Below, in pieces: positions 161 to 32,835 of a stretch of DNA of 64,000 nt. The stretch covers positions 1-64,000 of the forward strand of contig CALWLL010000013.1 of the NCBI GenBank assembly GCA_944381555.1. The letters run 5' to 3'. A program made the position numbers and the translations under genes. Below the pieces are notes generated by a model. That model saw only the letters and a program-made list of their open reading frames with translations. It was not told the DNA's origin and did not search any database. The stretch comes from an uncultured Agathobacter sp. (GTDB lineage Bacteria; Bacillota; Clostridia; Lachnospirales; Lachnospiraceae). Within the stretch, counting starts at the first letter, position 1. Every line of letters begins with the position of its first letter.

Positions 161-1480
161 TTAGGCTACTCTGTAGAGGAAACTTACCGCTTTCTTGTGG
201 TCGACTTTGCGAGGGTCATGACGCCCAGGACGTACAGGTAAGATTTCTTTGCTTATCAAGGCTTCAACATCTGGCGGAGATTTCTCCGCCATTTTACTTA
301 TAAAATATCTGCATATATGAATTGCATAAGTATAGTTAACTTGATAGGTATGTTTTTTCGTACATTTTTCAATTGTGATATGAGTGGTAATAATCTCGCA
401 AAAATTATATAAGAGAAGTCGTGCCCATATCTCTTGAATAATATATTCTCTTTTTTTTGAATGAAAACTGGTTAATCCTACAGCGTATTTTAGCTCTCTA
501 AATGATGTTTCAATTCCCCATCTTAATGCGTAAAGTTTTTTTATTTCATCTATCGAAAATTCATCATCGGGAAGATTAGTTAAAATACATTCATAATCAT
601 TATCTGTAATCTGAAATCTTACAACTCTCAAATTCATGTTATAAAAAATATGTTCATCTAAATCTAAAAAATCAAAGGAATGTGCATTACGAAAATGTCT
701 GTATATATCACGATTATTCAATATTTCATTTGTCCATTTTCTAGTTAGTATGAGAGATAAACGGCAATCAAATATATCTGTTTTAGGCAATCTGTCTTTT
801 GAACCGGCAATGATACCATTGCTACATATATCTTTACATCTGAATAAAAAGTAACTTCCTTTTTCTATTACATGTGCAATGTTATTATATGATTCATATC
901 CGCGGTCTGTAATAAAGATTGTGTTTCTGTCACCATTATATCTATCAACCATATCACAAAAAGCCGTGTGCTCATTTTCGATTCGGCTTGGTTGAATAAC
1001 AATATCTGTGTATGTTCTATTTAGCAAATCATACATAGCATTCAGATGAAGTTGATTAAATCCTTTTGATTTACCACATTTAAAATATGTTTCTGTATCA
1101 GCAGGATTATGTGCAATATTAACATCAGAACCATCGCATGCAATAAGTCTATAGCCTCTGAATCTCTTATCAGATGCATTTTGGTAATGTTCTGTAAAAG
1201 TGTTAAAAAGATATTCAAATGCACTTGAACTAACCTGTGCTCTTCTTTGATTGAACGAAGCGTTTGAAGGACAATCAGTGGTGTAACCAAAATATTTGTG
1301 CAATTCGTTTTTTAAAGATTGACCTTCCATCGAAATAATAAACTTTACTAATGTAGCAAAATCCCACTTCTTTTTACGCGAGAAATCTTTCTCTGGATTA
1401 ACCGTATAATCAGAAACATTAATCCCCATTTCATCAATAATCTTCCATAATGTTGCTTTAACTTCTTCCGAAAAGTTCAT
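161..1480 (-). CDS. IS4-family DDE transposase
   Basis: Transposase of 439 residues expected to cut and rejoin the ends of the surrounding element. The RNase-H-like core is visible: first Asp in the CDGSD stretch (D116), second in ITDRGYE (D192), and the IS4 signature Y-(2)-R-(3)-E-(6)-K with Y317, R320, E324 and K331, where E324 is the third catalytic acid. The start at 1480 (protein MNFSEE) has an AGGAGG nine bases upstream (1490-1495); an ATG 48 bases further out has none. The frame is intact and all catalytic residues are present. Family assignment is firm; the subgroup is not determined. Confidence 0.93.
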   Translation of the reverse strand: MNFSEEVKATLWKIIDEMGINVSDYTVNPEKDFSRKKKWDFATLVKFIISMEGQSLKNELHKYFGYTTDCPSNASFNQRRAQVSSSAFEYLFNTFTEHYQNASDKRFRGYRLIACDGSDVNIAHNPADTETYFKCGKSKGFNQLHLNAMYDLLNRTYTDIVIQPSRIENEHTAFCDMVDRYNGDRNTIFITDRGYESYNNIAHVIEKGSYFLFRCKDICSNGIIAGSKDRLPKTDIFDCRLSLILTRKWTNEILNNRDIYRHFRNAHSFDFLDLDEHIFYNMNLRVVRFQITDNDYECILTNLPDDEFSIDEIKKLYALRWGIETSFRELKYAVGLTSFHSKKREYIIQEIWARLLLYNFCEIITTHITIEKCTKKHTYQVNYTYAIHICRYFISKMAEKSPPDVEALISKEILPVRPGRHDPRKVDHKKAVSFLYRVA

Positions 1481-1588
1481 AAGCGATAACCTCCTAAAAT
1501 GTAATACAATTAAGAGGCTTCGCCGCATTTTTTTAGCTATTTGTCAAGTGTTTTTTATATCTTTTTTCAAATCTCTTCTACAAAAAAA

Positions 1589-5036: not shown

Positions 5037-5328
5037 GTTAATGAAATACAGCAAAAACTGCGAAGAGGAGTAGTAAGAGGGCTTGTTCTTTCAGAGAGTT
5101 GCCGTTTGGTGCGAGGCAATAGACGAAATCTCCCAACTCGCCTTGGAGTTTCCCGATTGAACATGTTTTTATATTCAGGCTGTTTGCGGCAGAAATAGAA
5201 TCAGTAGATAGGGACGGGAATTCCCGTTACAGAACCTTAAAGTGCTCATTTTAAGATGAGAATCAGAGTGGTACCACGGAGTAAATACAGCTTCGTCTCT
5301 TATTACGATAAGGGATGAAGCTTTTTTA
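5037..5328 (+). ncRNA. T-box leader (leucine) controlling leuS
   Basis: Leader RNA that senses uncharged tRNA-Leu. The hallmark T-box AGAGTGGTACCACGG is at 5265-5279, and the following terminator hairpin pairs AGCTTC (5289-5294) with GAAGCT (5317-5322) ahead of six T. A CTC triplet (5137-5139) sits in the context AACTCGCCTTGGAG typical of the specifier loop on the 3' side of stem I, which fits a Leu specifier and the downstream gene. When leucine is scarce, uncharged tRNA should stabilise the antiterminator. This leader fills the 398-base gap before leuS. Confidence 0.93.
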
Positions 5329-20446: not shown

Positions 20447-20480
20447 ACACCGAACGAAGAAATTTGTTCGGTGTATTTTA
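20447..20480 (+). terminator. pckA terminator
   Basis: ACACCGAAC (20447-20455) pairs with GTTCGGTGT (20466-20474), followed by ATTTTAT. The intergenic repeat starts immediately after it. Confidence 0.8.
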
Positions 20481-20522
20481 TATCATAGGAAAGACAGTAA
20501 TCGCTTTGCGATACCGTTCGGG
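20481..20522 (+). repeat. Terminator-linked repeat, short copy (B1)
   Basis: Begins TATCATAGGAAAG, then jumps to the distal part of the repeat (AGTAATCGCTTTGCGATACCG). It lacks the second inverted arm and the central segment seen at 25479-25606. It starts right after the pckA terminator. Confidence 0.65.
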
Positions 20523-20565
20523 CGCGTACTTCATTTTTAGAAATAAAAAAGTAATGAATTTCCTG

Positions 20566-20594
20566 TTGAATAAAATGATATACTAAAGTATAAT
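20566..20594 (+). promoter_or_regulatory. Promoter upstream of the 6S RNA
   Basis: TTGAAT (20566-20571), 17-base spacer, TATAAT (20589-20594). This would start RNA near 20601, about 90 bases before the predicted 6S 5' end. A weaker alternative, TTCACA-17-TACATA (20660-20688), would start near 20694. A 10-base direct repeat, ACAAGCTGCA (20624-20633, 20663-20672), lies between them. Confidence 0.5.
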
Positions 20595-20689
20595 TGATTT
20601 ATACAAATGACGAACGGGTTTTTACAAGCTGCAAAGGATAGCTTACGGAAGATAATGTATTCACAAGCTGCACAGGAAAACATACATAA

Positions 20690-20873
20690 GATGGCCTGAA
20701 ATGTGCGATAATCCTATATATTTAGAACCTACATCACTTTGAATGGGATTCCTATATGAGCTGCCGGATGTCAGGCCGCCTCGTATCAGTGGAAGGCAGA
20801 ACGCAGACTGCGGTTACCCACCTAGCATTTAGCTAGGCGTCTAAATTGTAGGAACCGGCATTTTGGGTTACAT
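20690..20873 (+). ncRNA. ssrS: 6S RNA
   Basis: About 180-nt structured RNA with 6S layout. The closing stem pairs 20694-20703 with 20859-20868 (three wobble pairs). An inner stem pairs CCTACA (20728-20733) with TGTAGG (20847-20852), and a terminal hairpin pairs CCTAGC (20821-20826) with GCTAGG (20832-20837). The stretches ATGGGATTCCTATATGAG and GTATCAGTGGAAGGCA and the CTAGGCGTCTAA end match what I recall of clostridial 6S RNAs. 6S RNA mimics an open promoter and sequesters housekeeping RNA polymerase. No good reading frame exists here, and a strong terminator follows. Confidence 0.75.
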
Positions 20874-20888
20874 AAAGAACGAAAGATA

Positions 20889-20922
20889 AAGAAGCTGCTT
20901 AGCAATAAGCGGCTTCTTTTTT
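20889..20922 (+). terminator. 6S RNA terminator
   Basis: A 13-bp stem (20889-20901 with 20906-20918, one wobble, loop GCAA) followed by a run of T to 20922. Confidence 0.88.
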
Positions 20923-20924
20923 AG

Positions 20925-21013
20925 TATCATAGGAAAGTCCGTGATGCATTAACGTGTGAAGAAAGCGGCTTTCCTATGATAAAATACTCCGCTAAGGATG
21001 TGTACCTCGCGGA
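20925..21013 (+). repeat. Terminator-linked repeat, copy B2
   Basis: Inverted arms ATCATAGGAAAG (20926-20937) and CTTTCCTATGAT (20969-20980) enclose CCGTGATGCATTAACGTGTGAA. They are followed by the shared tail CTCCGCTAAGGAT...ACCTCGCGGA, in which TCCGC can pair with GCGGA. Starts three bases after the T-run of the 6S terminator. Confidence 0.8.
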
Positions 21014-21041
21014 CATATTATGTTGAATGAAGGTAAAGGGT

Positions 21042-22691
21042 ATGAAAGAGAAGTGGAAATATAAAAAGCTATTTTATTTAATGCTTATCATAGTGGCGTT
21101 TTCTTTAGGAGTTACAGCAATCATTATATCGGGAATGATTAATGAAACGGATGGGAAAGAGGCAAAATACTGGTTTTTTGAAGAATCTATGCAGACTGGA
21201 AAAACTGTGAAGCTGGAAAATGTCTATATATACAGCGCCGAAAATAATCAGATTGAATTTTTGTACGACAATATACACTATGCAGTAGAGGGAACGCTGG
21301 CACAATCCTTTCAGGGAGTTGCCGATATTGTGATAAGCGGTGACCAAATCTCTAAGGTGCGTATTAAGCCGGATGGGGCAAGTGGTGTTCTATATTCTTA
21401 TGATGACGATTCTGTTACAGTAATCTGCGAGCCGGAGGATATAGAAACGGGTACCGACGGTGATAAAAATAAGAGCGCTGACAGTATAGAAGAATTGACA
21501 AGGGATACGGCTATTCCGATATATAAAGCAGAAGACGGCCAAATCGCTCAGGCAAACTGGAATCATATGATTGTAGGGACTTCCGAGATTTGCTGCATTA
21601 TGGAAAACGGACAGGTATGTGCAGTTATCATAGAAGAATCGCTTCCTACAGATATTCGTGTGGTGATAAAAAACGGCAGCTCTATATTTTATACTGAATT
21701 ATATGTAAAAAAACAGTCGGAGGGGACATTGGTAAATGTTTCTTCTTATATGACAGAACAAGAACTTGAGGTATTAGAACTGGATGATGATAAAGGGCTT
21801 ATATTATGTGATAAAGTTGGAAATGCACTGGGAGAAGCATATGAGGGCAGTTTTCGCATAATAAAAACAGGAAGTGGAATGGTGTTGGTAAATGAACTTC
21901 CGATTGAAACCTATGTAAAATACGTTCTTCCGTCAGAGATGCCCAAAACATTCCATGAGGAAGCACTAAAAGCACAGGCGGTATGCGCCAGAACGTTTGC
22001 TTATGATCAAATGAGCAATCAGTCATATGCCATGTATGGGGCAAATTTAGATGACAGTACTTCTTTTCAGGTATATCACGCAACAGGGCGCTTTGCCGAG
22101 ACGGATGCTGCGGTAGATGCTACAGAAGGAGAGGTTATCACCTGCAATGGCGAACTGATTACATGCTATTATTTTTCGACCAGTGCCGGCATGACCAACG
22201 ATATGAGCGTATGGGGTTCAAAAACACCAGAGTATATTAAAATATGCAGTTCAGAGGATACAGAATCGCCGTTTTACCGTTGGAAAGCGTATCTGGATAT
22301 TTCATCTGTCTGTGAAGAAGAACGTGGGAAACTAAAATCAGTGGAGGTAACGGGAAGTAATTCATCGGGTTATGTGACAGAGTTAAAACTTATATTTGAT
22401 AAAGAAACGCAGATATTAACCAAAGAAAATGACATCCGAAGAGCCTTAGGCACATATTTACAGGAAACAGTCCTGAATAATGGAAAAATCCGAACGGATT
22501 TTTCTATGATTCCAAGTGCAAATTTTACGGTAGCAGAGATTACGGATACACAGATTGTGTTAGAAGGGGGCGGATTCGGGCATGGAATTGGGATGAGCCA
22601 GTATGGCGCGAATCAAATGGCACAGAATAATTTTGGTTACAAAGCTATAATTGAGCATTATTATCATAATGTTGTTGTGAAAAATATATAA
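21042..22691 (+). CDS. SpoIID/LytB-domain protein
   Basis: 549-residue membrane-anchored protein with one N-terminal transmembrane segment (about 9-31) and an extracytoplasmic remainder. The C-terminal third is the SpoIID/LytB domain, with the conserved EALKAQAVCARTFA and the final GFGHGIGMSQYGANQMA block. SpoIID is a lytic transglycosylase acting on stripped glycan strands during engulfment; LytB-type relatives act in wall remodelling. The long N-terminal region is not in short SpoIID proteins, and no spoIIQ/spoIIID neighbours are present, so this may be a paralogue rather than spoIID itself. Start 21042 is preferred (AAGG upstream); 21027 is possible. Confidence 0.8.
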   Translation: MKEKWKYKKLFYLMLIIVAFSLGVTAIIISGMINETDGKEAKYWFFEESMQTGKTVKLENVYIYSAENNQIEFLYDNIHYAVEGTLAQSFQGVADIVISGDQISKVRIKPDGASGVLYSYDDDSVTVICEPEDIETGTDGDKNKSADSIEELTRDTAIPIYKAEDGQIAQANWNHMIVGTSEICCIMENGQVCAVIIEESLPTDIRVVIKNGSSIFYTELYVKKQSEGTLVNVSSYMTEQELEVLELDDDKGLILCDKVGNALGEAYEGSFRIIKTGSGMVLVNELPIETYVKYVLPSEMPKTFHEEALKAQAVCARTFAYDQMSNQSYAMYGANLDDSTSFQVYHATGRFAETDAAVDATEGEVITCNGELITCYYFSTSAGMTNDMSVWGSKTPEYIKICSSEDTESPFYRWKAYLDISSVCEEERGKLKSVEVTGSNSSGYVTELKLIFDKETQILTKENDIRRALGTYLQETVLNNGKIRTDFSMIPSANFTVAEITDTQIVLEGGGFGHGIGMSQYGANQMAQNNFGYKAIIEHYYHNVVVKNI

Positions 22692-22814
22692 AAAACAATA
22701 CTATTTTTTAGTAACTTTTTAAATCACTTTTTCGTTTATTTTCGGTACCGGTTGCGCTATAATGGAATAGTAAAAAAACAGCGTTTCATAGGGGAAGCGC
22801 AAGGAGGGAAAAGA

Positions 22815-24074
22815 ATGAAGAAAAGTATTATGAAAGTATTAGCTTCGATGTTAGTACTCGCAATGGCAATTACTGCATTGGTAATTCCGAATGCATCAGC
22901 AAAAGCTGCTGAGAACTATTATATTGCTGGAAGTATGCAGGGGTGGGACAATGGTAATGATGCATGGAAGATGACCCAGTCAGGTGATAATTATGTATAT
23001 ACACTTACCAGATTAGAGGCAGATGTTATTTATGAGTTTAAAGTAACAGATGGAACATGGGATAATGCTTGGCCGAGCAGTAATTATACTTTTAAGCTTG
23101 AGACAGTATCGGATGTTGTTGTTACATTTAATTCAACTTCAAAGGAAATCACTATTGCAGGTGAAGGTCTTCCGAAAACTGCTGAATATTATGTGTGTGG
23201 TAGTATGAATGAATGGGCTTTAATGCATGCTGATTATGCGATGACCAAAGTTGAGGGAAATTATGTATTAACAATCAAAGATCTTGAGGTTGGTACATAT
23301 ATGTATAAGGTTAATAATGGTACATGGAATGAAGCGTATCCGGAAAAAGATGCTGAGTTTGAGGTAAAACAGGCTGGAGAAGTTGTTATTACTTTAAATG
23401 GAACAACACATGAGGTTACAGCAACCGGCTCTGCGCTTGAAGAAATAGAAACAGAAACACCAACAGAAACTGAAACAGAAACACCAACAGAAACTGAAAC
23501 AGAAACTGAAACAGAAACATCAACTGAATCACAGACACCAACTGACACTCAGAATCCAGATGATTCAGAGGAAGAAGAAAAGAGTGATTACACTCCGGTT
23601 TACAAAGCTGCAACAATCGTAGGTGATTTCTCAAAACTTACAAATCCAAGCATTACAGCAAGCTGGGATGTGGCAAATACCGCAGCAAACATGAAACATC
23701 TTGGAAATGGTATCTATGTATATGAACTTACTTTTGATAAAACAACAGAAGAGATAACCGTTAACTACAAAGTAGCATTTGACAATTCATGGGATACAGC
23801 AATTGGTTATGACTATGAAGGAAAGAAGTTTACAACAGCCGATGGTTCAGATAACCTCTACATCACAATTCCGGCAGGAACAACATCTGTTAAGATTTAT
23901 GCAGATGAAAATGGACTGGTAGCATATAATACAATCCAGAATCCGGATGAAGCAGCCGCATTATTGGCAATTGTTTCTAAGGGTGATGCAAATATCGCAG
24001 TAATCGGTATGTTGATTTTAGCTGGCGCTGCATTAGTAGCAGTTGGTGTAATCAGCAAAAAGAAAGCTGCTTAA
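22815..24074 (+). CDS. Membrane-anchored surface protein with carbohydrate-binding-like modules
   Basis: 419 residues: a signal peptide (about 1-30, ending ASAKAA), two similar modules of about 80 residues starting YYIAGSMQGW and YYVCGSMNEW (the pattern of X25/pullulanase-type and starch-binding modules), a Thr/Glu-repeat linker (about 212-250), a third beta-rich module (about 260-375), and a C-terminal transmembrane helix followed by KKKAA. There is no LPXTG, so it should be held in the membrane with modules reaching through the wall. A role in holding starch or a similar glucan is inferred. Start 22815 follows AAGGAGG by seven bases. Confidence 0.7.
   Translation: MKKSIMKVLASMLVLAMAITALVIPNASAKAAENYYIAGSMQGWDNGNDAWKMTQSGDNYVYTLTRLEADVIYEFKVTDGTWDNAWPSSNYTFKLETVSDVVVTFNSTSKEITIAGEGLPKTAEYYVCGSMNEWALMHADYAMTKVEGNYVLTIKDLEVGTYMYKVNNGTWNEAYPEKDAEFEVKQAGEVVITLNGTTHEVTATGSALEEIETETPTETETETPTETETETETETSTESQTPTDTQNPDDSEEEEKSDYTPVYKAATIVGDFSKLTNPSITASWDVANTAANMKHLGNGIYVYELTFDKTTEEITVNYKVAFDNSWDTAIGYDYEGKKFTTADGSDNLYITIPAGTTSVKIYADENGLVAYNTIQNPDEAAALLAIVSKGDANIAVIGMLILAGAALVAVGVISKKKAA
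23447..23545 (+). repeat. Tandem repeat encoding the Thr/Glu linker
   Basis: Short imperfect units of the type ACAGAAAC(W)CCAACAGAAACTGA are repeated in-frame within the surface-protein gene. Such coding repeats are prone to slippage and length variation. Confidence 0.75.
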
Positions 24075-24098
24075 TTACATAGTAAATTAACGATACTT

Positions 24099-24128
24099 AA
24101 TCGGAGGAAGCATATGCTTTCTCCGATT
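24099..24128 (+). terminator. Surface-protein terminator
   Basis: AATCGGAG (24099-24106) pairs with CTCCGATT (24121-24128), with an inner AAGCAT/ATGCTT stem. Only a short T-rich stretch follows. Confidence 0.6.
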
Positions 24129-24154
24129 GATTTCTAATACATGTGAAAAAGTTG

Positions 24155-24319
24155 TTGACAGCAGAATAAAACTATGTTATTTTGTATGAGTTGATAACAA
24201 ACAAGTAGAGTATCCACTCTCACCTAAGCGTAATTGAGCGACTTAGAGTTCATATTTCCAACATGTATTTTTGTGTTAGAGATTTTTAGTGGATAGTCTG
24301 CCTATCCACTATTTTTTTT
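24155..24319 (+). promoter_or_regulatory. infC-rpmI-rplT leader with attenuator
   Basis: Promoter TTGACA (24155-24160), 17-base spacer, TATTTT. The leader ends in an intrinsic terminator, AGTGGATAG (24288-24296) pairing with CTATCCACT (24302-24310) before eight T. An upstream TATCCACT (24211-24218) is complementary to the terminator's 5' arm and can form the competing antiterminator. This fits the known Firmicutes L20 leader, where excess L20 favours termination. Confidence 0.8.
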
Positions 24320-24333
24320 GGAGGTACAAAGCC

Positions 24334-24840
24334 ATTAGCGAATTACAGATTAATGAACAAATCAGAGACAAAGAAGTTCGTCTTATCGGAACTGACGGAG
24401 AACAGCTTGGTATCGTTTCTGCGAAAGAAGCACAGAGACTTGCTGAGGAAGCTGGTCTTGACCTTGTAAAGATTGCTCCAACTGCGAAACCGCCTGTGTG
24501 TAAGATTATCGATTACGGTAAATATCGTTATGAACAGGCCCGTAAAGAAAAAGAAGCTAAGAAGAAGCAGAAAACTGTGGAACTTAAGGAAATTCGTTTG
24601 TCTCCAAATATTGAAGCTAACGATTTGAATACCAAAGTAAATTCTGCAAAGAAATTCATTGAAAAAGGAGACAAGGTAAAAGTTACACTTCGTTTCCGTG
24701 GCCGTGAGATGGCTCATATGAATCAGAGCAAACACATCTTAGATGATTTTGCCGAGGCACTTGCAGATATTGCAATAGTGGAGAAAGCGCCGAAGGTAGA
24801 AGGTAGAAGTATCGGAATGGTGCTGGCAGAAAAGAGATAA
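24334..24840 (+). CDS. infC: Translation initiation factor IF-3, ATT start
   Basis: IF-3 (168 residues) binds the 30S subunit and polices start-codon choice. The protein begins ISELQINEQI at an ATT codon (24334) with GGAGGT eight bases upstream (24320-24325). An in-frame ATG at 24289 lies inside the attenuator hairpin and has no ribosome site. AUU starts are a known conserved feature of infC, letting IF-3 repress its own translation. The N-domain, the Lys-rich linker (EKEAKKKQKTVELKEIRLS) and the C-domain are all present. First gene of infC-rpmI-rplT. Confidence 0.95.
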   Translation: MSELQINEQIRDKEVRLIGTDGEQLGIVSAKEAQRLAEEAGLDLVKIAPTAKPPVCKIIDYGKYRYEQARKEKEAKKKQKTVELKEIRLSPNIEANDLNTKVNSAKKFIEKGDKVKVTLRFRGREMAHMNQSKHILDDFAEALADIAIVEKAPKVEGRSIGMVLAEKR

Positions 24841-24861
24841 TACATTAAGGAGGATTTTATC

Positions 24862-25059
24862 ATGCCAAAAATTAAAACAAAAAGAGCAGCCGCAAAACGT
24901 TTCAAAGCAACAGGAACAGGAAAATTAAAAAGAAGTAAAGCGTATAAGAGACATATCTTAACTAAGAAAACAACAAAAACCAAGAGAAATCTTAGAAAAG
25001 CAGCATTGGTTGATTCAACAAATGTTAAGACAATGAAGAAGATTTTACCATATATGTAA
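24862..25059 (+). CDS. rpmI: 50S ribosomal protein L35
   Basis: 65-residue, strongly basic protein of the large subunit, with the family start [14 protein letters not shown] and the HILTKKTTK segment. AAGGAGG lies upstream. It sits 21 bases after infC and 23 before rplT, the conserved order. Confidence 0.98.
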
Positions 25060-25082
25060 GATTGTAGTAGGAGGAAAATAAC

Positions 25083-25439
25083 ATGGCAAGAATTAAAGGC
25101 GGCATGAACGCCAGAAAGAAACACAATAGAGTATTAAAATTAGCAAAAGGCTACAGAGGCGCTCGTTCTAAACAGTACAGAGTAGCAAAACAGTCAGTTA
25201 TGAGAGCTCTTACAAGTTCTTACGCTGGACGTAAAGAAAGAAAGAGACAGTTCCGTCAGTTATGGATTGCCCGTATCAACGCTGCGGCAAGATTAAACGG
25301 ACTTTCATACAGCCAGTTCATGCATGGTCTTAAATTAGCAGGAGTTGATTTAAACCGTAAAGTTTTAGCTGACATGGCAGTTACAGATGCTGTTGGATTT
25401 GCTTCTTTAGTAGAAGTTGCAAAGAGTAAATTAAACTAA
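25083..25439 (+). CDS. rplT: 50S ribosomal protein L20
   Basis: 118-residue basic protein needed early in 50S assembly. The N-terminal [15 protein letters not shown] and the [11 protein letters not shown] segment are diagnostic. In Firmicutes L20 also represses this operon by acting on its leader, which is visible upstream of infC. AGGAGG precedes the ATG and a terminator follows the stop. Confidence 0.98.
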
Positions 25440-25452
25440 TTGGAATACATCA

Positions 25453-25478
25453 GAGTCACCCGATGGGTGGCTCTTTTT
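25453..25478 (+). terminator. rplT terminator
   Basis: GAGTCACCC (25453-25461) pairs with GGGTGGCTC (25465-25473), then five T. Repeat copy B3 starts at the end of this T-run. Confidence 0.85.
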
Positions 25479-25606
25479 ATATCATAGGAAAGAACATGAC
25501 TTTCCTATGATATAAAAACGCTCTGCGAAGGATGCGCACCTCGCGGAAAGGAAGTAATCGCTTTGCGATACCGCTCGGCGCGAAAGTGTGCCGCAGGCAC
25601 ACACTT
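25479..25606 (+). repeat. Terminator-linked repeat, longest copy (B3)
   Basis: Perfect 14-bp inverted arms ATATCATAGGAAAG (25479-25492) and CTTTCCTATGATAT (25500-25513) enclose only 7 bases. Then come the tail CTGCGAAGGATGCGCACCTCGCGGA, the segment AAGGAAGTAATCGCTTTGCGATACCGCTCGG shared with B1, and a GTGTGCC-GCA-GGCACAC hairpin (25586-25602). Confidence 0.82.
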
Positions 25607-25629
25607 TTATAAAAAATATTTTTACTGTC

Positions 25630-25658
25630 TTGTCAGTTGTAAAGACATCTGTTATACT
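25630..25658 (+). promoter_or_regulatory. nadA promoter with NiaR-type operator
   Basis: TTGTCA (25630-25635), 17-base spacer, TATACT (25653-25658). Inside the spacer is an imperfect palindrome, CAGTTGT-AAAG-ACATCTG (25634-25651), i.e. CAGnTGT-n4-ACAnCTG. With niaR at the end of this gene cluster, repression by NiaR in the presence of nicotinate is the likely control. Confidence 0.65.
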
Positions 25659-25709
25659 ACTGTAGGTCAATTCAGATAAAGTATGAAAATTGACAGAAGG
25701 GAATCATAT

Positions 25710-26612
25710 ATGTCAATAGAAGAAATATTAAAGCTCAAAAAAGAGAAAAATGCAGTAATTCTGGCGCATTACTATGTTTCAGATGAGGTGCAGGAGATTG
25801 CGGATTATATCGGAGATTCGTATTACCTGAGCAAAAAAGCAAAGGAATTAGAAGAAAATGTCATAGTGTTTTGCGGTGTGTCATTTATGGGTGAAAGCGC
25901 GAAAATCTTAAATCCCCAAAAGAAGGTGCTTATGCCGGATAGGAATGCAGATTGTGCGATGGCACATATGGTAGACATAGAAAATATCAAGCGCATCCGT
26001 CAGGAATATGAAGATGTTGCGGTAGTTTGTTATATCAATTCTACTGCAAAGATAAAAGCGCATGCAGATGTGTGCGTAACCTCAGCTAATGCAGTTAAAA
26101 TTGTGCAGAGACTTTCAAATAAGAATATATTTTTTATTCCCGACGGGAACTTAGGACGTTATGTGGCAGAACAGGTACCACAAAAGAATGTAATTTTAAA
26201 TTCCGGTTACTGTCCAATCCATCATGCACTTACCCTTGAGGAGGTTTTAAAAGCCAAGAAGAAATATCCAAATGCACAATTTGTCGTACACCCGGAATGT
26301 GTCAAGGAGCTGCTTGATGAGGCAGATTATATCGGAAGTACTTCCGGTATCATCAGTTATGTGAAAAAAAGTGTGTGCAAAGAGTTTATCGTCGGAACGG
26401 AGGAAGGTGTTTTGTATGAACTTAAGAAACAAAATCCGGATAAGAAGTTCTATGTGATAAATGAGCAACAGATTTGTCAGGATATGAAGTCTATCACTTT
26501 GGATAAAATATATGATGTGCTGAAAAATGAAACCAATCAGGTTGAAATAGATGAGGGTCTCCGGCAGGCTGCGTTAAAGCCGTTGGATAAAATGCTGGAG
26601 TTAGCAAAATAG
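25710..26612 (+). CDS. nadA: Quinolinate synthase
   Basis: Condenses iminoaspartate with dihydroxyacetone phosphate to quinolinate, the second step of de novo NAD synthesis. 300 residues. The AVILAHYY start of the fold and the C-terminal iron-sulfur motif CQDMKSITLDKI are present, with further Cys in NADCAMAH and GYCPIHH. Start 25710 follows an AAGGGAA; an in-frame ATG 27 bases earlier would add a basic tail absent from the family. First gene of nadABC-niaR. Confidence 0.96.
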   Translation: MSIEEILKLKKEKNAVILAHYYVSDEVQEIADYIGDSYYLSKKAKELEENVIVFCGVSFMGESAKILNPQKKVLMPDRNADCAMAHMVDIENIKRIRQEYEDVAVVCYINSTAKIKAHADVCVTSANAVKIVQRLSNKNIFFIPDGNLGRYVAEQVPQKNVILNSGYCPIHHALTLEEVLKAKKKYPNAQFVVHPECVKELLDEADYIGSTSGIISYVKKSVCKEFIVGTEEGVLYELKKQNPDKKFYVINEQQICQDMKSITLDKIYDVLKNETNQVEIDEGLRQAALKPLDKMLELAK

Positions 26613-26621
26613 GATACCGTT

Positions 26622-27944
26622 ATGAATACAGACATATTGATAATTGGCAGTGGCTGTGCAGGATTGTACTGTGCATTACAACTGCCGGAAGAAAAAAAGA
26701 TAACAATTATTACAAAGTCAGATTTAGAAAGCAGTGATTCTTTTCTTGCGCAGGGTGGTATGTGTGTACAGAGAGATGAATCAGATTATGAAAGCTTTAT
26801 GGAGGATACGTTAAAGGCAGGACATTATGAGAATGACCGTCATGCAGTAGATGTCATGATTCGTTCCTCAAAGGATGTATTGGCAGATTTGCTTTCTTAT
26901 GACGTGGAGTTTAATAGGGATGAGGATGGAGAACTTCTTTATACGAGAGAAGGTGCGCATTCAAACAAGAGAATCCTGTTTCATGCAGATATTACCGGAA
27001 AAGAGATTACAAGTAAACTTTTAGCTGCTGTAAAAAAATTATCGAATGTAACAATCTATGAACATACAGCTATGATTGACCTGCTGGTGAAAGAAAATCG
27101 GTGCTATGGAGCAGTTATAGAGAATGCGGATAGTGAGATAGAGCTTATTACAGCAGAAACTACCGTTCTTGCTACCGGTGGAATTGGCGGTTTGTATGCA
27201 CATTCTACAAATTTCAGGCATTTGACAGGTGATGCATTGGCTCTTGCTGTGAAATATGGCATTGCGCTGAAGGATATTGATTACATACAGATACATCCGA
27301 CTACCTTTTATACCAAGGATAAAACAGAGAGAAGTTTTTTGATATCGGAATCTGTTCGTGGAGAGGGAGCAAAGCTTCGTGATAAGAATGGAAACCGTTT
27401 TGTTAATGAACTTCTGCCGCGCGATTTGCTTACGAAAGCAATCCTAGAGCAGATGGAAAAAGACAATACGGAGTTTGTCTGGGAGGATCTTAGAGAGATT
27501 CCGGAGGAGGAACTAAACAGCCATTTCCCGAATATTGTAAAGCATTGCAAAGAGCATGGCTATGATGTCAGAAAGGAATGTATCCCGGTAGTTCCGGCCC
27601 AGCACTATTTTATGGGCGGAATCAAGGTGAATGATGTAAGTAAAACTTCTATGGAAGCATTATATGCAGTTGGAGAAACTGCCTGCAATGGCGTACATGG
27701 GAAGAACCGTCTTGCCAGCAATTCATTATTAGAAAGTCTGGTATTTGCAAAACGTGCCGCAAAGGATATTAGCAAAGAAAATACGGGACTTGAAAAAACG
27801 AAGCCTGCGGATATATATACGGAAGAGTACTGGCAGATGTTTCTGCGGAAAAATATGCAGGCCTATAAAGAAGAACAGGCATTGAAAGAAAACTATAAAG
27901 AATTAGTATTAAATGAAATAGAGAAAGCAAAAGAAGCGAGGTAA
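26622..27944 (+). CDS. nadB: L-aspartate oxidase
   Basis: FAD enzyme oxidising L-aspartate to iminoaspartate, the substrate of NadA. 440 residues, shorter than the 510-540 of many homologues because the C-terminal helical region is reduced; this short form is usual in Clostridia. The FAD-binding GSGCAGLYCA (about 8-17), the QGGMC segment and the HPTTFY active-site stretch are present. In anaerobes fumarate is the expected electron acceptor. It starts nine bases after nadA. Confidence 0.95.
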   Translation: MNTDILIIGSGCAGLYCALQLPEEKKITIITKSDLESSDSFLAQGGMCVQRDESDYESFMEDTLKAGHYENDRHAVDVMIRSSKDVLADLLSYDVEFNRDEDGELLYTREGAHSNKRILFHADITGKEITSKLLAAVKKLSNVTIYEHTAMIDLLVKENRCYGAVIENADSEIELITAETTVLATGGIGGLYAHSTNFRHLTGDALALAVKYGIALKDIDYIQIHPTTFYTKDKTERSFLISESVRGEGAKLRDKNGNRFVNELLPRDLLTKAILEQMEKDNTEFVWEDLREIPEEELNSHFPNIVKHCKEHGYDVRKECIPVVPAQHYFMGGIKVNDVSKTSMEALYAVGETACNGVHGKNRLASNSLLESLVFAKRAAKDISKENTGLEKTKPADIYTEEYWQMFLRKNMQAYKEEQALKENYKELVLNEIEKAKEAR

Positions 27945-27947
27945 ACG

Positions 27948-28811
27948 ATGCGATTTGATGAAATTACTTTAAAACTAAATGCGGACCCTCTGATTCAATC
28001 GGCAATTCGTGAGGATATTACGAGTGAGGATGTATCTGCAAACAGTGTTATGCCGGCAGCTATGCAGGGGGAGGTAGACCTTATTTGTAAACAGGATGGT
28101 ATTATTTGTGGTCTTCTGGTTTTTGAACGTGTGTTTAAGCTTTTGGATGAAAAGACAGAGGTGGAATTTTATGTAAAAGATGGAGATGCAGTAACAAAAG
28201 GACAGTTAATGGCAAAGGTTCGGGGCGACATCCGTGTGCTTCTCGGCGGAGAGAGAACGGCGCTTAATTACCTTCAGAGAATGAGCGGGATTGCGACATA
28301 TACCCGTTCTGTTGCAGACTTGTTAAAGGGAACAAAGACGAAGCTGTTAGATACCAGAAAAACAACTCCAAATAACCGTATTTTTGAAAAATATGCAGTA
28401 ACAGTCGGTGGGGGAAATAACCACAGATATAACCTTTCAGACGGTGTATTGTTAAAGGATAACCATATCGGAGCTGCCGGCAGTGTAAAAAGAGCCATTG
28501 AGATGGCGAAGGAATACGCGCCGTTTGTCCGAAAAATTGAAATAGAAGTAGAGACCTTAGAGATGGTAAAAGAAGCTGTAGATGCGGGAGCGGATATTAT
28601 CATGTTAGATAATATGACGCATGAACAGATGAAAGAAGCCATTCGCATTATTGACGGAAAAGCTGAAATTGAAGTGTCCGGTAATGTTACAAAAGAAAAT
28701 ATAGAAAGATTAACCGATCTTGGTGTGGACTACATTTCCAGCGGTGCATTGACACACTCAGCACCGATTCTGGATATTTCCTTAAAGAATCTTCATGCAG
28801 CAGAAGCATAG
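27948..28811 (+). CDS. nadC: Nicotinate-nucleotide pyrophosphorylase
   Basis: Converts quinolinate and PRPP to nicotinate mononucleotide, CO2 and PPi. 287 residues. Active-site signatures are GERTALNYLQRMSGIAT, DTRKTTP and GGGNNHRYNLSD with the downstream KDNH. It starts three bases after the nadB stop, so translation is probably coupled. Its stop codon touches the structured repeat that leads into niaR. Confidence 0.97.
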   Translation: MRFDEITLKLNADPLIQSAIREDITSEDVSANSVMPAAMQGEVDLICKQDGIICGLLVFERVFKLLDEKTEVEFYVKDGDAVTKGQLMAKVRGDIRVLLGGERTALNYLQRMSGIATYTRSVADLLKGTKTKLLDTRKTTPNNRIFEKYAVTVGGGNNHRYNLSDGVLLKDNHIGAAGSVKRAIEMAKEYAPFVRKIEIEVETLEMVKEAVDAGADIIMLDNMTHEQMKEAIRIIDGKAEIEVSGNVTKENIERLTDLGVDYISSGALTHSAPILDISLKNLHAAEA

Positions 28812-28912
28812 TGTGAAAAATAAATTTCTCAAACGGCAATGTACGTCGGCACGCTGCTTGGCTTAAAGCTGCATATATGAAAAAAAGCGGCGCAGAAATG
28901 GAGATTAATATG
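28811..28912 (+). repeat. Structured intergenic repeat ending in a start region (A2)
   Basis: Runs from the nadC stop to an ATG at 28910 and aligns along its whole length with 38167-38266. The GTGTGAAAAATA start, the ACGGCAAT block and the GCGCAGAAATGGAGATTAA end are shared. GCTGCTT (about 28852) can pair with AAGCGGC (about 28886), leaving the GGAG ribosome site just beyond the stem. Confidence 0.7.
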
Positions 28913-28933
28913 AATTGGAAAGGGCAGGTATGA
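28910..28933 (+). other. Possible seven-codon mini-ORF coupled to niaR
   Basis: The ATG supplied by the repeat (GGAG six bases upstream) opens a seven-codon frame (MNWKGQV) whose TGA overlaps the niaR ATG in an ATGA arrangement. It may couple niaR translation to ribosomes loaded at the repeat. Translation is not demonstrated. Confidence 0.3.
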
Positions 28934-29478
28934 ACGGAGAACAGCGCAGGGAACAAATTGTTTGGATAATTAAAAATAGTGCAGAACCCGTATCCGGTAC
29001 GGCGTTGGCAAAACAGGTAAATGTCAGCCGGCAGGTCATCGTGCAGGACATTGCCCTGTTACGCGCAAATGGAGTGGATATTATTTCTACAAACCGGGGT
29101 TATATTATTGGAAAACATGGCAAAGCAAGCCGTGTGTTTAAGGTGATTCATACACCGGAACAGGTAGAAGAGGAATTGAATCTGTTTGTGGATTTTGGCG
29201 GATATGTTAAGGATGTATTTGTATATCACAAGGTATACAATGTGCTGAAAGCAGATATGAATCTGAAATCCCGTGCAGATGTCCGCAGATATATCAGTGA
29301 ACTTGCGGCAGGTAAATCCAGCCTTCTTATGAATGTAACTTCGGGCTATCATTATCATACGATTTTGGCAGATGATGAAGAAACGCTCGACATTATTCAG
29401 GAAAAGCTATGGGAAAAAGGTTTTCTCGCTAAGCTTAAGGAATATGAACCGGTAGAATTTGGAAAAAGAAATATGTAA
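28930..29478 (+). CDS. niaR: NiaR transcriptional repressor (HTH_11 and 3H domains)
   Basis: Niacin-responsive repressor of NAD synthesis and salvage genes, 182 residues. The N-terminal winged helix (about 5-60, SGTALAKQVNVSRQVIVQDI) is followed by the 3H ligand domain with His residues in VYHKVYN and SGYHYHT that bind metal and nicotinate in this family. It closes the nadABC cluster it should control, making an autoregulated operon. Start 28930 gives the normal length and has AAAGGG upstream; a TTG at 28915 is a less likely alternative. Confidence 0.93.
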   Translation: MNGEQRREQIVWIIKNSAEPVSGTALAKQVNVSRQVIVQDIALLRANGVDIISTNRGYIIGKHGKASRVFKVIHTPEQVEEELNLFVDFGGYVKDVFVYHKVYNVLKADMNLKSRADVRRYISELAAGKSSLLMNVTSGYHYHTILADDEETLDIIQEKLWEKGFLAKLKEYEPVEFGKRNM

Positions 29479-29483
29479 ATGAC

Positions 29484-29515
29484 GAAAGGGGCATCAATTC
29501 TGTGATGCCTCTTTC
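29484..29515. terminator. Bidirectional terminator between niaR and AraC gene
   Basis: A 13-bp stem (29484-29496 with 29503-29515, one wobble) followed by TTTGCG on the plus side. It includes the last codons of the convergent AraC-family gene. Confidence 0.75.
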
Positions 29516-30336
29516 TTTGCGTTGCGGTATTCTTTTGGTGACATTCCTTTTTCCTTATGGAAAGCCTTGGAGAAATATAAGCTGTTGTCAAAGCCGATAG
29601 AATTGGCAATGGCTGTAATGGATAGATCCGAGCGTTCCAGTAAAAGGCAGGACTGCTTGATGCGAAAATCCGTCAGGTATTCTTTTGGGGATACACCTAG
29701 AACTGTTTGAAAGGAGCGGAACAGGTGGCTGCGGCTTAATCCGACATAGGAGGCGATGTCTTCTACCGTAATCGGATAGGAGTAGTTCGCTGTGATGTAT
29801 TCAATTCCTTTTTGAACATAGCTTTGCGCAGTATTAGAATGGGTCTGCTTTTTGGCATTGTGCATCAGGATCGCAAGCGTAGTGTAGAGGCGTCCGGTCA
29901 TTTCTACCGCGTGTTCAAATTCATTGCCGCGAGCATCATATATTTTTAATATTTGATTTTGAAGAGCCTTGCCTTCCGGTGTGTTTTGAATCACAGGTGA
30001 GGTTTTTGAGAAATCCGTTGCCTGTAGGATAATGGCCGCATCACTCCCGGCAAAACCTACCCATGCATATTCCCAGGGATTTTGTTCGGCGGCGTAATAA
30101 GTGACTTCTGTATTAGGGTATACCAGAAAACAATCGCCGGCCCGCAGATGGAATTTTATTCCGTTTACATGATAATAGCCTTCGCCTGCAATAATATAAT
30201 GGATCAGATAATGGTCCCGGATACCCGGTCCCCACTGATAGAGAGGGTCGCATTTTTGAAAACCGACATTATATACAGAAAGTGATATAAGCTCTTTTTC
30301 CGATACGATATAAGAGTTTTTATAGTTTTGAATCAT
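29494..30336 (-). CDS. AraC-family transcriptional regulator
   Basis: 280-residue regulator with an N-terminal cupin sensor (about 20-140; the HYHVNG/GDCFLVYP pattern typical of sugar-responsive members) and a C-terminal double helix-turn-helix (about 180-275; IASYVGLSRSHLFRSF and IANSIGFDNSLYFSKAF). Divergent from galE across about 190 bases, so it may control galactose or other sugar use; the ligand is unknown. The start at 30336 has AAAGGA seven bases upstream; two earlier in-frame ATGs lack this. Confidence 0.88.
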   Translation of the reverse strand: MIQNYKNSYIVSEKELISLSVYNVGFQKCDPLYQWGPGIRDHYLIHYIIAGEGYYHVNGIKFHLRAGDCFLVYPNTEVTYYAAEQNPWEYAWVGFAGSDAAIILQATDFSKTSPVIQNTPEGKALQNQILKIYDARGNEFEHAVEMTGRLYTTLAILMHNAKKQTHSNTAQSYVQKGIEYITANYSYPITVEDIASYVGLSRSHLFRSFQTVLGVSPKEYLTDFRIKQSCLLLERSDLSITAIANSIGFDNSLYFSKAFHKEKGMSPKEYRNAKKEASQN

Positions 30337-30522
30337 GGCAATCCTTTCCGGAAACTTTTTCATAAAGGTCAATAATGGTCTATATATTTATTATATAGTA
30401 AAAACAACTTTATGCAACATTTTTACATATAATTCATACATTTATGGATATACATTTACAGAAGTTTGAGATATGATTAGTTCAAAGAAAACAAAAAAGA
30501 TGCAAAGGAAAGGAGATAAAAT

Positions 30523-31539
30523 ATGGCTATTTTAGTTACAGGCGGAGCAGGTTACATTGGAAGTCATACATGTGTAGAGCTGTTAGACGCAGGATATGAT
30601 GTCGTTGTTTTGGATAATTTAAGCAATTCGTCAGAAAAATCATTGGAGAGAGTGGAAGCCTTAACCGGGAAGAAGGTAAAATTCTACAAAGGTAACATTT
30701 TAGACAGAGATATCCTGAATACGATTTTTACAAAAGAAAGCATTGAAAGCTGTATCCACTTTGCAGGCTTAAAGGCAGTGGGCGAATCCGTTGCAAAGCC
30801 TTGGGAATACTACGAAAATAACATTGCGGGAACATTGACGCTTGTAGATGTTATGCGGCAGAATGATTGTAAAAACATCATTTTCTCATCATCCGCTACT
30901 GTTTACGGAGACCCGGCCGAGATTCCGATTACAGAAGAATGTCCAAAAGGACAGTGTACCAATCCATACGGCTGGACAAAGTCTATGTTAGAGCAGATTC
31001 TTATGGACATCCAGAAGGCAGACAAGGAGTGGAATGTGATTCTGCTTCGTTATTTCAACCCAATCGGGGCGCATAAGAGTGGCATTATGGGTGAAAATCC
31101 AAATGGTATTCCAAATAATCTGATGCCTTATATAACACAGGTTGCAGTCGGAAAATTAAAAGAACTCGGAGTATTCGGCAATGACTATGATACGCCGGAC
31201 GGAACCGGAGTACGCGACTATATCCATGTCGTTGACCTTGCAAACGGACATGTGAAAGCATTAAAGAAATTAGAAGAGAATGTCGGGCTTGGCATCTATA
31301 ATCTTGGAACCGGACGCGGATGCAGTGTTATGGAGCTTGTAAAGAACTTTGAAGAGGCTAACGGCATAAAAATTCCTTATGTAATAAAAGAAAGAAGACC
31401 GGGAGATATCGCAACCTGCTATTGTGACCCTGCAAAAGCAAAAAGGGAACTCGGCTGGGAAGCACAGTATGGAATCCGTGAAATGTGTGAAGATTCCTGG
31501 AGATGGCAGAAGAACAACCCGAATGGCTATGAGGAATAG
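30523..31539 (+). CDS. galE: UDP-glucose 4-epimerase
   Basis: Interconverts UDP-glucose and UDP-galactose for the Leloir pathway and for envelope glycans. 338 residues. NAD-binding GGAGYIGSH (about 6-14), the SSSATVYG segment and the catalytic Tyr/Lys pair in NPYGWTKS are intact. AAAGGAG lies upstream. galK and galT are not present; a membrane protein gene follows after about 40 bases. Confidence 0.97.
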
Positions 31540-31582
31540 AAACATACTGGTAAATGTGTGTTTATCCATAGGAAGTAGAAAA

Positions 31583-32359
31583 ATGCAAAAATTTATATGT
31601 AGATGTGTAATAGCCTGGATATTCCCAATCGCTTATTTCTGGCTTTTCAAAAGTGATGCAATGTTTTATTCTATTGTATTCCTGCATGGCTGGTATAATG
31701 TTTTTGCAGTAGTGACGGCATTTCTCATTGGTAAGCGTAATTATTTTGGGATTTTCAAATGGATTGCACCACTCGTAATAGGTGTTATGAATGTAATGAC
31801 CTATCCTGTAACCTTTGGTCTGTTACACGACATAAACTATGGTAAATTTGAGTTTTTTGATATAGATATTAGAACACTGATTCATCATGTTGTTTTGTCT
31901 TTTGTAGGGTTAGTGGCAGGTGTTATCATCGGTTTCATAGTGAATCGTGCAAAAGAACAGGAATCCAAAAGCGTTCTTTTTAATATTCCGGGTTGGATGT
32001 GGGGTGTTTTCATTGCATGGATATTTCCCATTATTAAATTTTGGGTTTTTGATTTTGATACCATATTCTTTTCTGTGTTTTTGTATATTTGGTATATGCT
32101 GCTGGCTTTTTTGGCATCCGCTCTCATTGGAAGAAGAGGCTCTCCTGGGGTGCATAAATGGTTACAGGCGGTTATTCTGCTTCTTATGAATATGGTTGTA
32201 TATCCTCTGACTGTTGGGCTGGTTGAAATGCAAAAAGGCAGTATGAAAGACCTGATTGATATCAAATATATTGTGGCGCAAGTGATAATTGTTGCGGTCG
32301 GTTTTCTTATGGGGATGTCCGTTTGTTATATTTGTAATAGAAAAGCCATAAAAGAATAG
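31583..32359 (+). CDS. Internally duplicated membrane protein, unknown
   Basis: 258-residue membrane protein built from two tandem copies of about 130 residues. Each copy holds AWIFPIxxFW, then a segment ending in ALIG/FLIG with a basic RxxxGxxKW, then MNxxxYPxTxGL, followed by a hydrophobic segment ending in an Asn/Arg turn. About four membrane helices per half are likely. I do not recognise the family. Start 31583 (AGGAAGT upstream) removes a long frame overlapping galE. It ends in its own terminator. Confidence 0.7.
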   Translation: MQKFICRCVIAWIFPIAYFWLFKSDAMFYSIVFLHGWYNVFAVVTAFLIGKRNYFGIFKWIAPLVIGVMNVMTYPVTFGLLHDINYGKFEFFDIDIRTLIHHVVLSFVGLVAGVIIGFIVNRAKEQESKSVLFNIPGWMWGVFIAWIFPIIKFWVFDFDTIFFSVFLYIWYMLLAFLASALIGRRGSPGVHKWLQAVILLLMNMVVYPLTVGLVEMQKGSMKDLIDIKYIVAQVIIVAVGFLMGMSVCYICNRKAIKE

Positions 32360-32363
32360 ATTT

Positions 32364-32395
32364 CAGGGTCAGCGTTTGCTGACTCTGGAATTTTT
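32364..32395 (+). terminator. Terminator after the duplicated membrane protein
   Basis: CAGGGTCAGC (32364-32373) pairs with GCTGACTCTG (32378-32387), loop GTTT, followed by GAATTTTT. Confidence 0.75.
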
Positions 32396-32417
32396 GCTAA
32401 AATTTTATAAAAAACAC

Positions 32418-32446
32418 TTGTATTTTTTCTTTTAACATGGTATAGT
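32418..32446 (+). promoter_or_regulatory. tRNA-Glu promoter
   Basis: TTGTAT (32418-32423), 17-base spacer, TATAGT (32441-32446), ten bases before the tRNA 5' end. Confidence 0.65.
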
Positions 32447-32456
32447 ACTCAAGCAT

Positions 32457-32528
32457 GGTTCGTTGGTCAAGCGGTTAAGACGTCGCCCTCTCACGGCGAA
32501 AACACGGGTTCGAGTCCCGTACGAACTG
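32457..32528 (+). tRNA. tRNA-Glu (anticodon CTC)
   Basis: 72-nt cloverleaf. The acceptor stem GGTTCGT pairs with ACGAACT (G-T at the first pair), the discriminator base is G, and the anticodon stem TCGCC/GGCGA encloses CTCTCAC, giving anticodon CTC for GAG. The T-arm ACGGGTTCGAGTCCCGT is standard. CCA is not encoded. It is a single-gene transcript with its own promoter and terminator. CTC is the less common Glu anticodon; a TTC isoacceptor presumably exists elsewhere. Confidence 0.95.
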
Positions 32529-32533
32529 CTAAG

Positions 32534-32560
32534 AACTACTTCGGTTGAAGTGGTTTTTTT
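32534..32560 (+). terminator. tRNA-Glu terminator
   Basis: AACTACTTC (32534-32542) pairs with GAAGTGGTT (32547-32555) around GGTT, followed by a T-run. Repeat copy B4 begins at its end. Confidence 0.8.
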
Positions 32561-32561
32561 T

Positions 32562-32663
32562 ATGTCATAGGAAAGACCGTGATACATTAAAGTGTGAAAG
32601 AGAACAACTTTCCTACGATATAAAAAAGCTCCGCTAAGGATACGCACCTCGCGGAAAGGAAGT
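32562..32663 (+). repeat. Terminator-linked repeat, copy B4
   Basis: TCATAGGAAAG and the imperfect arm CTTTCCTACGATA enclose CCGTGATACATTAAAGTGTGAA (compare B2). The shared tail CTCCGCTAAGGATACGCACCTCGCGGA and AAGGAAGT follow. It starts at the end of the tRNA terminator's T-run. Confidence 0.8.
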
Positions 32664-32835
32664 ACTTGCATTTGACAGTGTTTCTGCCCATGAGATGCTT
32701 TTATCTACTCTATGGTAAGAAAAATGTCTATGTTTTGGAATAATTTTCTGCCCATATGCAGTTGTGTCATCGCTTGTGGTTAGAAACACAGGGTATTTTG
32801 CTGCAAGTGTCAGTACCGATATGTAAAGAAAAAAC
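32664..32835. other. Unexplained spacer with direct repeats
   Basis: No gene or known RNA recognised. It holds TTTCTGCCCAT twice (32681-32691, 32745-32755). ACTTGCATTTG at its left edge (32664-32674) is repeated at 32835-32845, where it contains the -35 of the rimP promoter. An inverted GTGTTTCT/AGAAACAC pair is also present. It may be a decayed or duplicated promoter region. Confidence 0.4.

Follow-up and report, generated by a model that had tools for sequence, protein, structure and literature searches.

A short, gene-less repeat family of Lachnospiraceae that appears to target transcription terminators

The closest described relatives in form of the element reported here are the palindrome-associated transposable elements (PATEs) of Haloquadratum walsbyi and the insertion sequences of the IS200/IS605 group. 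According to the available part of the PATE description, new insertions occurred although every IS200-type gene of one strain is a pseudogene, and deletion of the core yields versions that consist of the termini only (PMC3119063). In IS200/IS605 elements, as far as the accessible portions of two accounts go, a guide sequence lies 5' of a hairpin (PMC8266576, PMC7290912). The present work concerns an intergenic repeat in a 64,000-nucleotide (nt) stretch of an uncultured Agathobacter species (contig CALWLL010000013.1, assembly GCA_944381555.1), the whole of which is called the window below. The repeat is found immediately 3' of intrinsic terminators, almost always facing the same way; its target preference, its orientation, its lineage-specific gain, its covarying arms, its lack of sense-strand preference and its tandem copies are established. 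It is very probably a mobile, terminator-targeted element, and the balance tips somewhat towards its being moved in trans by a single-strand transposase of the IS200 type.

An earlier note on this DNA had claimed four copies with a common arm, each starting within about four bases of the T-run of a terminator, and both observations hold. The arms start at 20482 (B1), 20926 (B2), 25481 (B3) and 32564 (B4), with 2-3 nt between T-run and arm in all four, and the arm pattern with up to two mismatches has 24 matches in the window against 8.5 expected. A covariance model recovers all four copies (E 4e-25 to 3e-5), of which B1 is the sole independent match, the model alignment having included B2, B3 and B4. 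The copies, their target sites and the two RNA genes concerned are as follows.

20447..20481, plus strand: terminator of pckA, target site of B1 (sequence acaccgaac..gttcggtgt followed by tatttt)
20482..20526, plus strand: copy B1, left arm joined to distal block (sequence, covariance model, right-half query match at 20488-20526)
20690..20873, plus strand: 6S RNA (Rfam RF00013, 67.3 bits)
20889..20925, plus strand: 6S RNA terminator, target site of B2 (sequence)
20926..21013, plus strand: copy B2, both arms and core hairpin, without right end (BLAST E 1.2e-20, covariance model)
25452..25480, plus strand: terminator of rplT, target site of B3 (sequence, fold)
25481..25610, plus strand: copy B3, 7-nt loop, core hairpin, distal block and right-end hairpin (BLAST E 1.7e-30, covariance model, right-half query)
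32457..32529, plus strand: tRNA-Glu(ctc) (ARAGORN, Rfam)
32533..32563, plus strand: tRNA-Glu terminator, target site of B4 (sequence)
32564..32672, plus strand: copy B4, both arms and core hairpin, without right end (BLAST E 5.2e-32, covariance model)

The 6S RNA and tRNA-Glu sites are confirmed by Rfam and ARAGORN; the genes that we take to be pckA and rplT, like all other protein genes named here, were identified by reading their translations, without a protein-family search. The inverted arm partner described for three copies is present, but in B4, whose arms are GTCATAGGAAAG and CTTTCCTACGAT, each arm carries one mismatch. The supposedly shared tail, CCGCTAAGGAT..ACCTCGCGGA, is found in B2 and B4 and takes the variant form CTGCGAAGGAT in B3, while B1 has none. 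The distal block that B1 and B3 were said to share is TAATCGCTTTGCGATACCG, and from its sequence B1 appears to be an internally deleted element.

In the 2.31-Mb host genome (G000), a BLAST search with a 123-nt consensus query finds 42 element places (E<1e-6). The arm alone, with at most one mismatch, has 129 matches in the whole genome versus 10 for a reversed control pattern, and 67 exact arm places stand within the genome-wide listing. Full host copies measure 157 nt, which is too short to encode a transposase; nine align to the consensus end to end without change of length, and five more span almost all of it with small insertions or deletions. Across species the full copy measures about 130-160 nt, with longer variants in some (L209, L225). 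Reading outward from the terminator, the left half comprises the host T-tract, arm 1 ATCATAGGAAAG, a 32-nt loop, arm 2 CTTTCCTATGAT and an A-tract, after which come a GC-rich core hairpin, CGCTCCGCGAAGGATGCGCACCTCGCGG (general form CGCTCCGCG..CGCGG), then GGAA, a small ATCGC..GCGAT hairpin, CGCTCGGGCGCG and AAAGTGTGCGTCAAGCGCACACTTTGTT. The right end generally consists of the last hairpin followed by CTTTNTT. In summary, the element is bounded by a T-tract abutting NNNATAGGAAA..TTTCCTAT..AAAAACGCTCCGC on the left and by a hairpin and CTTTGTT on the right. Palindromes lie near both ends (arm and core hairpins on the left, GTGTGCG..CGCACAC on the right), and terminal inverted repeats are lacking, the left end and the reverse-complemented right end agreeing at 6/20 positions.

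Near-identical copies occur within one genome, and many others are cut down to 12-40 nt. Some short copies (L050, L114, L138) are internal deletions that retain right-end sequence, and several copies with a left end only finish near position 38, where the conserved loop block ends. Solo left ends at L001, L115, L116 and L127 stop at position 38-41 in the alignment, and those at L122 and C30:68883 do likewise by eye, as if this block were a separate unit. Seven draft contigs of the host (C10, C13, C23, C25, C27, C30 and C45) start or finish in or beside element copies, so the element seems to break the assembly. The consensus structure given by RNAalifold for a first alignment was poor, probably because truncated copies had been included.

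Association with terminators was measured on 103 distinct arm readings in the fetched host loci. Thirty were set aside as second arms read from the opposite strand, a filter that also took out one or more genuine solo copies (L012, located behind a terminator, is one), and the remaining 73 were scanned strictly for a hairpin and T-run ending within 16 nt. Such a terminator lies upstream of 31/37 better copies and 9/12 exact solo arms, compared with 57/4000 random positions and 183/3000 positions that follow a T-run; the figure for one-mismatch arms is 5/24, in a group that includes chance matches inside genes. Placement in the genome is strongly enriched at predicted terminators and is not random. 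The distance from stem to element is 4-8 nt in 36/40 terminator-positive copies (median 6), and insertion relative to the terminator is in one orientation. Inspection by eye of the nine misses revealed three large-loop terminators (L034, L126, L113), one copy standing behind the degenerate right end of another element (L051) and two second-arm readings (L026, L118). The other three, L037, L016 and L123, are true exceptions: the first two come after a T-run but show no clear hairpin, and the third comes after no T-run. They make the earlier statement that the family always begins at a terminator slightly too strong.

Orthologous sites indicate that these insertions were acquired. In G187, the nearest relative found, all four window sites possess the terminator and lack the element, with the caveats that the next gene differs at rplT and that a short relic is possible at pckA. 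Another species (L189) has a left-end-like remnant after its 6S terminator, and in a third (L172) a diverged element is located near rplT. Among seven host loci compared, readable empty sites exist in G187 or other relatives at thrS, valS, plsX, yigZ and L041; the relatives' terminators differ at L034, and the left flank is unreadable at L122. At thrS the element is present in 0/19 relatives (judged by eye, G187 and G156 included), and no other genome among 62 of the genus appears in the matches listed for this copy. No target duplication is visible at thrS, most junctions being unreadable in relatives too diverged, and by eye the T-tracts at occupied sites look no longer than at empty ones. 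Element presence is a lineage-specific gain and not a matter of descent, with empty sites, as the earlier note had anticipated for a mobile element, at 4/4 window loci in G187 and in 19/19 relatives at thrS.

The same architecture recurs in Lachnospiraceae with covarying arms. A DNA query has matches in 19/150 genomes of the family, the host included (E<=1e-5), and in 30/62 genomes of the genus (E<=1e-4). The exact core pattern occurs in 3/391 genomes of the class, all within the 16 of the host's own family (host included), and in 0/375 sampled class genomes outside it, though this pattern would miss diverged cores. A scan of named genomes gave at least 116 stretches, and most of the 80 titles listed belong to Lachnospiraceae or its genera; Coprococcus comes, Ruminococcus faecis, Butyrivibrio, Blautia and Hungatella are among the matches listed. 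One copy (L204) comes from a contig assigned to Anaerolineaceae, which may be a Lachnospiraceae contig placed in the wrong bin. The search of plasmids gave no element match, that of phages two weak ones (MT835472.1 and MT836815.1) and that of viral contigs a single one (L329, from IMG/VR), where the open reading frame (ORF) beside the element resembles, judging by eye, that of a phage-type repressor.

For analysis of the arms, 116 elements from other loci were retained, only those with a stem score of at least 20, and loci of the same genome are not independent. Their arms form 2071 Watson-Crick pairs as opposed to 91 mismatches and 52 gaps, and 54 distinct arm cores exist among 79 readable arms. 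The mean stem score is 33.0 for an element's own arms versus 21.9 when arms are swapped between loci. A strict terminator precedes 83/116 of these elements, compared with 32/3000 random positions. In the complete genome G183 (13 copies) and in G585 (one copy), 11/14 copies are terminator-positive, L509 being missed by the pattern. Tandem arrays of three units (L227) and two units (L278) are also found, in which the terminator ahead of each further unit is the final hairpin plus T-run of its predecessor; three further copies in G183 (L513, L516, L517) likewise stand behind apparent right-end hairpins.

Folding data bear on whether the hairpins act as DNA or as RNA, the earlier note having offered, as its second option, an element that acts on RNA 3' ends. 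If sense RNA mattered, an excess of G-T over A-C mismatches would be expected in the arm stems; the 116 elements have 17 and 48, respectively, and sense RNA is therefore not favoured. Both strands of the element fold equally well, the difference in minimum free energy between plus and minus strand being 0.10 +- 0.47 kcal/mol, whereas the host terminators just upstream favour the sense strand (-2.46 +- 0.33 kcal/mol). Since the element, unlike these terminators, has no sense-strand preference, DNA-level hairpins are likelier, and the RNA option is not supported.

Certain IS200 copies of the same bacterial family use the same kind of target. Multi-copy sets of Y1 transposase genes were fetched before their flanks were read, and 16/20 regions were scored; four (L416, L419, L420, L421) could not be aligned with their set and received no score, and L099 and L102 were excluded from the counts, having been chosen from a by-eye reading of upstream regions. 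Insertion-sequence boundaries were placed by eye, to a precision of a few nt, and those in G005 by analogy. On this basis, IS200 copies immediately follow terminators in G127 (5/5), G046 (3/3) and G005 (2/2), versus 49/3000 for the random control. In G183, 4/4 related IS200 copies are terminator-flanked, among them L503, which lacks a T-tract; three other Y1 copies of this genome (L505-L507) could not be aligned with the first copy and have no score. The distance from stem to insertion is 5-11 nt for IS200, compared with the element's median of 6. The terminator-adjacent insertion sequences with TnpA, all in one orientation, are those at L402-L409, L417-L418 and L501-L504. At L502 the space between a T-run and the left part of an element (arm 1, loop, arm 2 and A-tract) is precisely filled by an IS200 copy; IS200 and element therefore used the same position. 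In terminator-adjacent IS200 copies an A-rich stretch lies directly 5' of the first (left) hairpin, the place that the guide occupies in IS200/IS605 elements (PMC8266576, PMC7290912), and in the element the A-tract lies directly 5' of the core hairpin, with a T-tract as target. The correspondence of A-tract and guide may be put forward as a likeness of layout.

These observations, together with the genome-wide enrichment, the empty orthologous sites and the tandem copies, speak for the small mobile terminator-targeting element that the earlier note had given as its first option. A PATE-like, non-autonomous element with an IS200-type TnpA as its mover is, by a modest preference, the reading adopted here. 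Under this model, an IS200-type single-strand (Y1/HUH) transposase acting in trans would excise the element and insert a copy one way round, directly 3' of a terminator's T-tract. As guide, the A-tract located 5' to the first GC hairpin would pair with the T-tract; one cut would be made at the T-tract's 3' boundary and another behind the terminal CTTTGTT of the element. The element's own terminator-like hairpin would keep the host gene terminated and create a fresh target, which would explain the tandem arrays.

It is tempting, if more tentative, to suggest that transposition is coupled to termination, with some IS200-type transposases of Lachnospiraceae, and the small elements that they move, locating their targets through the terminator itself. 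Hairpin extrusion or the terminating transcription complex might expose a single-stranded T-tract, with which the A-rich guide could pair; the terminator at the far end would then rebuild the target, so that arrays might grow outward from the 3' end of a gene and leave the gene unharmed.

Several observations weigh against the model of a PATE-like element with an IS200-type mover. Seventeen places have the left end only and three the right end only (binomial p = 0.003, from a left-plus-middle query compared with a right-half query, both at E<1e-6; one of the three has a possible loop remnant). Such an excess is not predicted for a two-ended transposon; truncation at insertion, deletion or some function of the left end may be the cause. 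The host genome, at 97.79% completeness, has no match to PF01797 (Y1_Tnp). Across the 62 genomes of the genus, the element is present in 30 and a Y1 gene in 22, with 14 having both, 16 the element only, 8 Y1 only and 24 neither, a weak association (Fisher p = 0.11). The Y1 sets of G026 and G077 stand behind terminators in 0/6 cases, and none of the elements fetched has a Y1 gene inside it. A non-exhaustive motif scan of 28 loci of IS200 or of REP-associated tyrosine transposase (RAYT; REP, repetitive extragenic palindrome) type did not reveal the element's ends, giving isolated 7-9-nt motif matches. L123 is preceded by no T-run. Copies are oriented with replication in 12/13 scored cases in G183 (from 34 first-look candidates) and in 5/5 in G576, yet these 17/18 are hardly above the figure for genes (347/400 ORFs). 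The excess of A-C over G-T in the arms counts against the simplest DNA reading, and it hints that antisense RNA could be involved.

IS200/RAYT loci were also considered as hidden full-length versions of the element, a candidate rejected on the isolated motifs and on the absence of a Y1 gene inside any element. One RAYT-like gene lies 3 kb from an element copy (L216), and eight RAYT-type loci are not flanked by the element.

A different DNA recombinase, of the DDE or site-specific kind, for which the T-tract is a mere AT-rich docking site, is an unlikely mover. The lack of a Y1 match in the host would suit it, as would the failure to find a tie in cis to Y1 (with queries made from Y1 loci, other transposase families not having been searched), and the accessible part of a study of Tn916 provides a precedent for a recombinase that prefers T-run/A-run sites (PMC11838328). 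In the same source, however, Tn916 inserts in both orientations, whereas the present element is one-way relative to the terminator. Its target is also common to some IS200 of the same family, and, with no terminal inverted repeats and no duplication seen at thrS, a classical miniature inverted-repeat transposable element (MITE) of DDE type does not fit.

Retroposition is less probable still. An antisense transcript ending in the A-tract would be reverse-transcribed with the T-tract as primer, an idea that draws on the complementarity of the two tracts, would make the surplus of left-kept copies (17 to 3) truncated products and would turn the 48 A-C mismatches, against 17 G-T, into antisense wobble pairs. 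From its sequence, the antisense strand would meet a terminator-like hairpin and TTTTT ahead of the left end, which argues against such a transcript, as do folding energies without strand preference, T-tracts that by eye have not lengthened at occupied sites and the short copies that are internal deletions with right-end sequence. A group IIC intron or other reverse transcriptase was rejected as mover, the sole RVT_1 match in the host being a group II intron protein of D1D4-5 type. The intron itself lies at L328 544-3114 (G000:C32), encodes a 605-aa protein and stands between two ORFs, apparently within a gene.

Comparably improbable is a conserved functional RNA or 3' untranslated structure, kept by selection at terminators as a back-up terminator or stabiliser of RNA 3' ends. 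Location behind terminators would be as expected, and the element at L035 folds with its host terminator far more stably than shuffled sequence (z -9.4 and -7.0 for the two strands). Presence at orthologous terminators is lineage-specific, however, copies within a genome can be near-identical, many are only 12-40 nt long, and the arms lack sense-strand wobble; at a relaxed threshold, Rfam gave no element match in five element-bearing loci, with chance-level matches nearby only. Vertical inheritance of degenerate terminator-adjacent sequence, the repeat family being a by-product of recombination, could appeal to the possible relic at the G187 pckA site and the remnant behind the 6S terminator of L189, and is barely credible given the empty sites (4/4 window loci, 19/19 at thrS) and tandem copies with their own terminators.

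Terminators, usually viewed as signals to RNA polymerase, appear in Lachnospiraceae as landing sites for DNA elements, used by some autonomous IS200 copies and by gene-less satellites alike. If this reading is correct, selfish DNA could spread in this way without breaking genes. The findings also point to a terminator-addressed insertion system and to a possible, concrete origin of repeats between genes and of breaks in draft assemblies of Lachnospiraceae. Among the titles and abstracts listed by searches of open-access papers, none describes the element family or terminator targeting by IS200.

Elsewhere in the window, a T-box leader is found at 5051-5303 (Rfam RF00230, 126.9 bits), and positions 1-1651 hold a 455-aa ORF (161-1528, minus strand) flanked by perfect 22-nt inverted repeats (1-22 and 1630-1651), an arrangement that we take to resemble an IS4-type insertion sequence.

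Among known systems, repetitive extragenic palindromes and bacterial interspersed mosaic elements share with the family their small size, extragenic position, palindromic form and many copies, and the REP mover is thought to be a Y1 enzyme (PMC8266576, in part). According to the same portion of that source, REPs measure 20-50 nt and mostly bear a GTAG tag, whereas the element measures 130-160 nt and is multi-hairpin and terminator-specific. Membership of the REPs was rejected on size and sequence, on the lack of a host Y1 match and on the eight RAYT-type loci without a flanking element. In the Bacillus cereus group, repeats (BCRs) of 100-400 bp include bcr1, with about 39 copies per strain and confined to that one group; its mobility is linked to a TTTAT motif, a mechanism akin to site-specific recombination has been proposed, and terminator targeting is not mentioned in the available part of the report (PMC6542083). 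Group IIC introns likewise choose sites after Rho-independent terminators, or after attC hairpins, and find their target by short pairing with the upstream exon; these are a ribozyme with a reverse transcriptase, as the accessible text of the source has it (PMC7923331), unlike the element, whose membership was rejected since five element-bearing loci gave no Rfam group II intron match to it. Membership of the DDE-type MITEs was rejected on the missing terminal inverted repeats (6/20 identities) and on the missing duplication at thrS.

The likeness to IS200/IS605 is closer. IS200/IS605 insert 3' of a short motif without inverted repeats or duplication, with hairpins near the ends and a guide 5' of a hairpin, to judge from the portions available of PMC7290912 and PMC8266576. 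The element follows a fixed motif in one orientation, as elements mobilised by IS200/IS605 do, and likewise has hairpins near its ends and no terminal inverted repeats; no duplication is visible at thrS, and its A-tract has the position of a putative guide. IS200/IS605 encode TnpA, whereas the element is gene-less, and its left end differs from theirs in an extra arm pair that extends the pairing of T-tract and A-tract. PATEs, as portrayed in the accessible part of PMC3119063, are likewise short, without transposase or terminal inverted repeats and with palindromes near the ends; they give no target duplication, and none is visible for the element at thrS, most of its junctions being unreadable. 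That part mentions no terminator target for PATEs, whose palindromes are related to IS605-type transposons, while for the terminator-targeted element no such partner was found. Because kinship of its ends with an IS605/IS200-type transposon was sought and not found in the 28 IS200/RAYT loci scanned by motif, the element is called PATE-like and not a PATE; unlike PATEs, it is distributed across an entire family of bacteria and has its own terminator-like hairpin.

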